Source: Bacteroidia bacterium
Lineage (GTDB): Bacteria > Bacteroidota > Bacteroidia > SpSt-205
Length of the DNA: 64,000 nucleotides
Direction: 5' to 3'
Assembly (NCBI GenBank): GCA_026414975.1
Contig: JAOAHZ010000006.1
Span: 1-64,000 of the forward strand
A program made the translations under genes and the position numbers. Below, one piece after another: positions 60,743-63,238 of this stretch (within the stretch, counting starts at the first letter, position 1; every line of letters starts with the position of its first letter). The notes under the pieces are model-generated. The model did no database searches and was not told the DNA's origin. It saw only the letters and a program-made list of their open reading frames with translations.

Positions 60743-61747
60743 TTAGCTTGGTACAGCTTCTTTCTGAGAGAGAGTAGGGAGAGCTGCCAGAGATCGGCGC
60801 AATTCATCGGGCGTGCGTGCTTCCATGAGGGAGAGGCGGAGCTTCTTGGCATAAGGCAAGCCTTTGAAGTAACCGGCGTAATGTTTGCGCAGTTCTATCA
60901 CGACTTTTTGGGGGGACTCGGGCAAGAGTCGCAAGGCATAAGAGAGATGTTTGTCTATCATAGCAATCCGCTCTTCCAGAGAGGGAGGAGGAAGGAGTTG
61001 GCCTGTCAGGAAATAGTGCTTGATTTCTCGGAATATCCAAGGGTATCCGATAGCGGCGCGTCCAATCATCATTCCATCGGGACGGTAAGCGTGATAAAAC
61101 TCCCAGGCGCGCTGAGGGGAATCAATATCGCCGTTTCCAATGATGGGTATATGTAGATTTGGATCGCTCTTAAGCCTACCTATCCATTCCCAGCGGGCAT
61201 CCCCGGCGTATCCATCGGCTCGGGTGCGGGCGTGCACGGTCAGTGCAGCGATACCAACCGCTTGCAGGCGATGCGCTACCTCCATAATCCGAATGCTGGA
61301 AGCATCCCATCCCAAACGCGTCTTTACTGTAACGGGTAGGGCGGTACTTTGAACGATCTCGCGGGTTAGGTGCTCCATTCGGTCAATATCACGGAGGATG
61401 CCCGCTCCAGCCCCTTTGCATACAACCTTGCTGACGGGGCAACCATAGTTTATATCCAGCCAGTCTGGACGTACTCTTTCTATGAGGCGGGCCGCTTCAC
61501 GCATAGAGCTTATGTCTCCTCCGAAAATCTGAATGGCCACGGGTCGCTCCTCATCCCATATACGAGCCTTTTGCCAGCTTTTCTCTATTTGGCGGATCAA
61601 GCCTTCGCTGGAAATAAACTCTGTGACGACCGCATCGGCTCCCATCTCTCGGCACAATCGCCGAAAAGCCGCATCACTCACATCCTCCATCGGGGCTAAG
61701 AAGAGCGGAGGCATGATCCCCCTCCACTCAACTCGTCCTATGCGCAC
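60743..61747 (-). CDS. tRNA-dihydrouridine synthase (DusB-like)
   Basis: This flavoenzyme reduces uridine in tRNA. The 334-residue protein starts near PLFLAPMEDVSDAAFRRLC and has VTEFISSEG, the family signature DINYGCPVSKVVCKGAGAGIL with the catalytic Cys, TVKTRLGWD, VHARTRADGYAG, IIGNGDI and MIGRAAIGYPWIF. A C-terminal helical domain closes it. The frame is open to 61882, but GTG 61747 is chosen: a perfect -7 box ends 5 nt before it, and the longer start would lie inside cysS. Confidence 0.93.
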   Translation of the reverse strand: MRIGRVEWRGIMPPLFLAPMEDVSDAAFRRLCREMGADAVVTEFISSEGLIRQIEKSWQKARIWDEERPVAIQIFGGDISSMREAARLIERVRPDWLDINYGCPVSKVVCKGAGAGILRDIDRMEHLTREIVQSTALPVTVKTRLGWDASSIRIMEVAHRLQAVGIAALTVHARTRADGYAGDARWEWIGRLKSDPNLHIPIIGNGDIDSPQRAWEFYHAYRPDGMMIGRAAIGYPWIFREIKHYFLTGQLLPPPSLEERIAMIDKHLSYALRLLPESPQKVVIELRKHYAGYFKGLPYAKKLRLSLMEARTPDELRRSLAALPTLSQKEAVPS

Positions 61748-61752
61748 AGAGG

Positions 61753-61760
61753 CAAATATA
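61753..61760 (-). promoter_or_regulatory. -7 element TATATTTG of dus (part of a shared palindrome)
   Basis: Perfect TAnnTTTG on the minus strand ending 5 nt before GTG 61747. It overlaps the cysS -7 box by 4 bp within the palindrome CAAATATATTTG (61753-61764). Confidence 0.65.
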
Positions 61761-61764
61761 TTTG
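61757..61764 (+). promoter_or_regulatory. -7 element TATATTTG of cysS (part of a shared palindrome)
   Basis: Perfect TAnnTTTG ending 4 nt before GTG 61769. Only 21 bp separate the two divergent start codons. Confidence 0.65.
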
Positions 61765-61768
61765 TCGG

Positions 61769-63238
61769 GTGGCACTCGTCCTCTACAATACCCTTACCCG
61801 CCGAAAAGAGCCTTTTTCCCCCCTCAATCCCCCCTATGTGGGCATGTATGTGTGCGGTCCCACTGTATATGGAGATCCGCATTTAGGGCATGCCCGAGCT
61901 GCCGTGGTCTTTGATGTTCTTTATCGGTATTTGACCTTTCAGGGCTATAAGGTTCGGTATGTGCGCAACATCACCGATGTAGGGCATTTGGAGGGCGATG
62001 CTGATGAGGGGGAGGACAAAATCCTCAAAAAAGCCCGCTTGGAAAAAATAGAACCTATAGAGGTAGCCCAGCGTTACACAGCCTTGTATCATAAGGCGAT
62101 GGATGCCCTGAATGTGCGGCGTCCTTCTATAGAGCCTACGGCTACGGGCCATATTCCTCAGCAGATCGCTATGGTACAGCGGATACTGGAGCGGGGCTAC
62201 GCCTATGTCGTGAATGGCTCGGTTTATTTAGATGTAGAGCTCTATCGTCAGGATTTTCCTTATGGAGTTCTATCGGGGCGTCAGGTGGAGGAACTCATAG
62301 CGGGGAGTCGTGAGTTAGAGGGCCAGGCCGAGAAGCGGCATCCCTGGGATTTCGCTTTATGGAAACGAGCTGAGCCAACTCATCTCATGCAGTGGGACTC
62401 TCCATGGGGACGCGGCTACCCCGGCTGGCATATTGAATGCTCAGCCATGAGCACGCATTACCTTGGAGTGCCATTTGACATTCATGGGGGTGGATTGGAT
62501 CTGATTTTTCCTCATCATGAAGCTGAAATTGCACAAGCTCACGCTTGTTATGGCGAAGCAGCTCATCATCAAGCTCGCTTTTGGATACACAATAACCTTG
62601 TTACCATAGATGGACAGAAAATGAGTAAGTCCCTCGGCAACTTCATCACCATAGAAGAGGTCTTTTCAGGGAACCATCCCAAGCTAAGCCGAGGCTATCC
62701 TCCTATGGCTCTGCGCTTTCTCATTCTCCAAGCCCACTACCGAAGCACCTTAGATTTTTCGGAGGAAGCCCTTAGAGCGGCTTATCGCGCCTACTTGCGC
62801 CTAATGAATGCCTATCGTCGTCTCTTGCAGGTGCGCCCTCACAGCTATGCTACTTACTCCATAGGAGCTTGGAAGGAAAAAGTATTCGCAGCGTTAGATG
62901 ATGATCTCAACACGGCAGCTGCTCTGGCTCTTTTCTTTGAGCAAACCGATGATATACTCCGCTTATACCGAAATGAAATTTACCTCTCTCCAGAGGACTT
63001 GGATAGCTTAAAGCGCATCTGGCAGGAGGTCTTGTTTGATATTTTAGGGCTTACTCCGATCCATCAAGTCGAGTGGGAGAGGTGGGAGCGGGTGGTAAAT
63101 CTACTGATTCACTTGCGGCGTCAGGCTCGTTCAGAACGGAACTTTGCCTTAGCTGACTTCCTCCGAGATGAGCTTCAGCGGCTTGGTGTGAGACTTTTGG
63201 ACTTTCCAGAGGAGACCTTATGGGAGCTGGCCGAGTGA
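61769..63238 (+). CDS. cysS: Cysteinyl-tRNA synthetase
   Basis: Class I synthetase of 489 residues. YNTLTRRKEPF opens the protein; MYVCGPTVYGDPHLGHARA carries the HIGH motif and a zinc Cys. FALWKRAEP and GWHIECSAMST (second zinc Cys) follow, then FPHHEAEIAQ with zinc-site His and Glu. The ATP-site KMSKSLGNF is present. Length is normal. The start is GTG. The next gene overlaps its stop by GTGA. Confidence 0.97.
   Translation: MALVLYNTLTRRKEPFSPLNPPYVGMYVCGPTVYGDPHLGHARAAVVFDVLYRYLTFQGYKVRYVRNITDVGHLEGDADEGEDKILKKARLEKIEPIEVAQRYTALYHKAMDALNVRRPSIEPTATGHIPQQIAMVQRILERGYAYVVNGSVYLDVELYRQDFPYGVLSGRQVEELIAGSRELEGQAEKRHPWDFALWKRAEPTHLMQWDSPWGRGYPGWHIECSAMSTHYLGVPFDIHGGGLDLIFPHHEAEIAQAHACYGEAAHHQARFWIHNNLVTIDGQKMSKSLGNFITIEEVFSGNHPKLSRGYPPMALRFLILQAHYRSTLDFSEEALRAAYRAYLRLMNAYRRLLQVRPHSYATYSIGAWKEKVFAALDDDLNTAAALALFFEQTDDILRLYRNEIYLSPEDLDSLKRIWQEVLFDILGLTPIHQVEWERWERVVNLLIHLRRQARSERNFALADFLRDELQRLGVRLLDFPEETLWELAE

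Follow-up and report, generated by a model that had tools for sequence, protein, structure and literature searches.

The DNA analysed here, a window of 64,000 nucleotides, comes from a draft genome of 2.2 Mb, assembled into 58 contigs. The genome is a member of a genus in the class Bacteroidia whose named members are metagenome-assembled genomes, for example KatS3mg025/026 and the SKY series; judging by their names, we take the KatS3mg025/026 and SKY-series genomes to be hot-spring genomes. In this window, genes for a tRNA dihydrouridine synthase (dusB, or dus) and a cysteine–tRNA ligase (cysS) diverge from start codons separated by an interval of 21 bp (61748–61768; Table 1). An earlier note, written from the sequence alone, had named the genes dus and cysS, and both names were upheld by matches to TIGR00737 (301 bits, cut-off 293) and TIGR00435 (447 bits, cut-off 340), respectively. 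We also found support for both start codons. The N terminus of Dus, (V/M)-(R/Q)-I-G, and that of CysS begin at the same point in relatives, and the next in-frame ATG of dus (61714) is absent from the related genomes G002 and G010.

Table 1. Features of the dusB–cysS region, in window positions
Feature	Position	Strand	Remarks
12-bp palindrome CAAATATATTTG	61753–61764	both	a pair of TAnnTTTG boxes with TATA in common; same sequence in four genomes of the genus
predicted -7 element of cysS, TATATTTG	61757–61764	+	4 nt upstream of GTG
predicted -7 element of dusB, TATATTTG	61753–61760	-	5 nt upstream of GTG
cysS, cysteine–tRNA ligase	61769–63238	+	TIGR00435; GTG start, from alignment
dusB, tRNA dihydrouridine synthase	60743–61747	-	TIGR00737; GTG start, from relatives

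Overlapping predicted -7 boxes between dusB and cysS

The earlier note had described a 12-bp palindrome in the 21-bp gap, 5 nt from one GTG and 4 nt from the other, and these figures are exact in the sequence. The palindrome, CAAATATATTTG, is present as a single copy in the whole 2.2-Mb genome, sited exactly between the two start codons. It consists of two Bacteroidota sigma-A -7 boxes (TAnnTTTG) that overlap by 4 bp, and it reads as the promoter box TATATTTG on either strand, with TATA common to both. The letters of the box allow two back-to-back copies to overlap by only 2 or 4 bp, and an overlap of 4 bp forces all twelve letters, so the palindrome needs no further explanation. No other exact, correctly oriented TAnnTTTG was found within 500 bp upstream of dus or cysS. 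The distances from box to GTG are the two modal values of a genome sample; that of dus (5 nt) is one off the modal 4 nt, which counts against the reading we favour below. A further point against that reading is that the TATATTTG variant is a minority form, carried by 10 of the 82 putative leaderless genes in the sample, and TACCTTTG and TATCTTTG are commoner.

Sigma-A promoters of Bacteroidota have an optional TTG at about -33, 17–23 bp upstream of the box. Reading the sequence of the locus, we observed no TTG at 17–23 bp upstream of either the dus or the cysS box. In Flavobacterium psychrophilum, the sigma-A box TAnnTTTG was mapped at -12 to -5 (PMC9723704), which places +1 about 4 nt past the box. 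By this spacing, the transcription start of cysS is predicted at or within a base of 61769 (PMC9723704), and that of dusB would lie at or within a base of 61747–61748, making both transcripts leaderless.

Box placement and divergent pairs across the genome

We combined gene-level statistics from a 350-kb sample, obtained with simple ORF calling, with pattern counts over the whole genome. Among long ORFs in the sample, the distance from TAnnTTTG to the start codon peaked at 4 nt (37 cases) and 5 nt (16 cases), as compared with 0–1 for four control motifs. The box stood 3–8 nt before the start in 34 of the 74 genes (about 46%) that have a divergent upstream neighbour, and controls did so in 0–2 (0–3%). 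Genome-wide, TAnnTTTG-N4-ATG had 192 matches against 8 for the backward control pattern, the largest excess ratio in a sample of 60 genomes of the class. This enrichment 4–5 nt before start codons makes initiation of transcription at the start codon likely for many genes, and transcripts in the genus probably begin there, to judge from box position. Examples in the window with a box 4–5 nt before the start include the starts at 87, 1742, 7007, 20106, 24145 and 24216. Elsewhere in the class, G051 had 356 TAnnTTTG-N4-ATG matches against 75 for the control, which suggests that leaderless genes are frequent in that genome too. Across 54 aligned promoters of the source genome, no -33 element was visible or enriched, and the box alone may therefore define the promoter.

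Close pairs of divergent boxes were abundant. Back-to-back boxes 0–30 bp apart numbered 50 in the source genome against 0 in the control, and 532 against 15 in the genus. For 26 of the 49 back-to-back pairs examined, with gaps of 1–30 bp, start codons lay within 2–8 nt on both sides. The dus/cysS pair is at the tight end of this range. The source genome has no other 4-bp overlap, and dus/cysS is the one locus where we saw divergent starts flanking an overlap of that length. Overlaps of 2 bp numbered 38 in the genus against 12 in the control, and 2 of the 36 distinct sites checked had starts on both sides. Given these counts, we rejected overlap as a generally favoured design. The dus/cysS site is thus most likely the extreme form of a close divergent arrangement found often in the genus, rather than a special on/off switch.

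Additionally, we observed other close pairs of this kind. In the source genome, CAAATATATTATATTTG (G000, C55, 165472–165488; L224) is another near-fused pair, with boxes 1 bp apart between divergent starts. Divergent boxes that overlap by 2 bp, with starts within 4–7 nt on both sides, make G007:C3:250331–250344 (L153) and G003:C1:134844–134857 (L148) candidate shared promoters.

Conservation in the genus

The cysS gene is present in 10 of the 11 genomes of the genus, and TAnnTTTG-N4-RTG precedes it in all ten. In eight genomes dus lies divergently beside cysS, and in seven of these the dus box is 4–7 nt before the start; the exception is G008, where dus starts 24 nt away. We did not find dus beside cysS in any of the 71 loci compared from outside the genus; within this comparison, the arrangement is peculiar to the genus. 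The palindrome is identical in the source genome (G000), G002, G004 and G010, flanked by spacers of 4–5 nt and 4 nt that vary in sequence. The dus and cysS boxes are separate in G005, G007 and G009 (10, 21 and 27 bp apart, respectively) and overlap by 2 bp in G008. The dus start codon is GTG in the palindrome clade and ATG in linked relatives outside that clade.

In a tree of the Dus and CysS proteins combined, the palindrome carriers grouped together, set apart by a branch supported at 100/97, so a single origin of the palindrome suffices, and the fused form probably arose once. Four-fold degenerate sites of the four carriers are near saturation, with pairwise identities of about 0.23–0.39, and only 9% (cysS) and 7% (dus) of these sites are identical in all four. 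Retention of 12 of 12 bases against this background points to selection and not to recent descent. The earlier note had named conservation of the palindrome in related genomes as a check on its proposal. The outcome was mixed: conservation held within one clade, and the spacing between box and start is conserved more widely than the palindrome itself.

Interpretation and comparison with known systems

With a probability of about 0.8, we favour a reading in which the palindrome serves both divergent genes as a symmetric, bidirectional promoter core and both predicted mRNAs are leaderless. What is observed is the boxes and how they are spaced, a leaderless signature across the genome, and conservation of the 12 bp in one clade; from these we infer the actual start sites, the use of both directions and polymerase exclusion at dus/cysS. 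The earlier note had assigned the palindrome to both genes as their -7 elements, and this assignment is the most likely one, given a box 4–5 nt before starts throughout the genome and conservation in four species with saturated silent sites. One 12-bp site would hold the sigma-A -7 elements of both dusB and cysS. Sigma-A would recognise TATATTTG either way round, RNA polymerase would load in either orientation, and RNA would begin on each GTG or one base from it, with the predicted start sites about 22 bp apart. The fused form probably has a single origin, in which a divergent pair whose boxes already lay close together became more compact, and it would persist because every base is required by one promoter or the other. 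Steric exclusion of one polymerase by the other would then be a by-product, common to dozens of close divergent pairs. An unlikely extension of this reading is that promoters in the genus need no more than the 8-bp -7 box, in which case fusion of the boxes would create a single loading site where the choice of orientation sets the ratio of dus to cysS leaderless mRNA.

The earlier note had further proposed that the two genes may be mutually exclusive at the initiation step. As a selected property, this would make dus and cysS transcription alternatives and couple tRNA modification to the supply of cysteinyl-tRNA. Predicted start sites 22 bp apart leave no room for two polymerases together, and the common core is conserved across four diverged species. 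However, other genus members have dus and cysS divergent but with their boxes apart; at about 50 places in the genome, divergent boxes are close enough for two polymerases to clash, and dozens of unrelated divergent pairs are nearly as tight; and of the loci compared, only those of the genus have dus next to cysS. Polymerase footprints would still overlap in the relatives with separate boxes. Because the clash would also apply to these relatives and to other close pairs, exclusion is plausible as a by-product. Strong activation in one direction represses the other in E. coli (PMC12825309), but all five bidirectional promoters tested there compete little at basal activity, with competition appearing once one direction is strongly activated (PMC12825309). 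A selected dus-versus-cysS switch is not supported, and we consider it improbable.

Also of low probability is that the palindrome works as a promoter for just one gene, cysS or dus, and that the box on the opposite strand is a by-product of symmetry. Consistent with such one-sided use, the cysS box keeps a distance of exactly 4 nt in each of the ten genomes with the gene, and the dus spacing is more variable, reaching 24 nt in G008. Against it, conservation extends to the full 12 bases, and the CAAA half among them is of use to dus alone; relatives whose boxes are separate have a well-placed box for dus itself; and dus has no other exact box within 500 bp upstream. A perfect 12-bp palindrome between two starts could instead be an operator that binds a dimeric regulator controlling both genes. 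An operator would be expected in several copies ahead of a set of genes, but each carrier genome has one, and elsewhere in the genus the sequence turns up twice more, neither time between divergent starts. Moreover, two TAnnTTTG boxes at the given offset already force all 12 letters, and the palindrome is absent from relatives that retain the boxes; we rejected the operator as very improbable. A chance AT-rich palindrome is barely credible even for so short a sequence of few letters, and was rejected on an expectation of about 0.01 per 64 kb in dinucleotide shuffles and on conservation at the same place in four species with saturated silent sites.

The symmetric bidirectional core that we favour resembles the bidirectional promoters described in E. 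coli and Salmonella by Warman, Grainger and co-workers (PMC12825309, PMC10268837), and we would class it as a leaderless form of that promoter type in Bacteroidota. The class is defined by a shared core and starts 7–25 bp apart, with 18, 10 and 23 bp as common start-to-start distances (PMC10268837, PMC12825309). In both cases a symmetric core presents a promoter box on each strand and opposing polymerases would be unable to bind together, and the dus/cysS distance of 22 bp, predicted from box position and genome-wide spacing, falls within the range. By contrast, the dus/cysS core is the Bacteroidota -7 box TAnnTTTG and not TATAAT, the 4-bp overlap of its boxes dictates a perfect 12-bp palindrome, there is no visible -33/-35 element, and both mRNAs are predicted to be leaderless from starts that are themselves predicted, not mapped. 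The locus would be an example of a bidirectional promoter whose core is not of the E. coli type, one that is conserved and whose evolution can be traced. The series in its relatives, from boxes 27, 21 and 10 bp apart through a 2-bp overlap to the fused form, is a natural test of where polymerase interference sets in.

Sigma-A promoters of F. psychrophilum have the same -7 consensus and a +1 about 4 nt downstream (PMC9723704). Unlike those promoters, the source genome has no visible -33 motif, and whereas 5.5% of mRNAs with mapped starts are leaderless in F. psychrophilum (PMC9723704), the box directly precedes about half of the sampled divergently placed genes here. Leaderless genes of Actinobacteria and Deinococcus-Thermus likewise have a box about 12 bp before the start codon and RNA that begins at the start codon (PMC3160421). 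That survey, which considered Pribnow-type boxes only, covered 37 Bacteroidetes/Chlorobi genomes and reported leaderless genes in one of them, at 2.4% (PMC3160421). The dus/cysS locus also draws attention to a genus of Bacteroidota where leaderless promoters in back-to-back pairs appear to be common.
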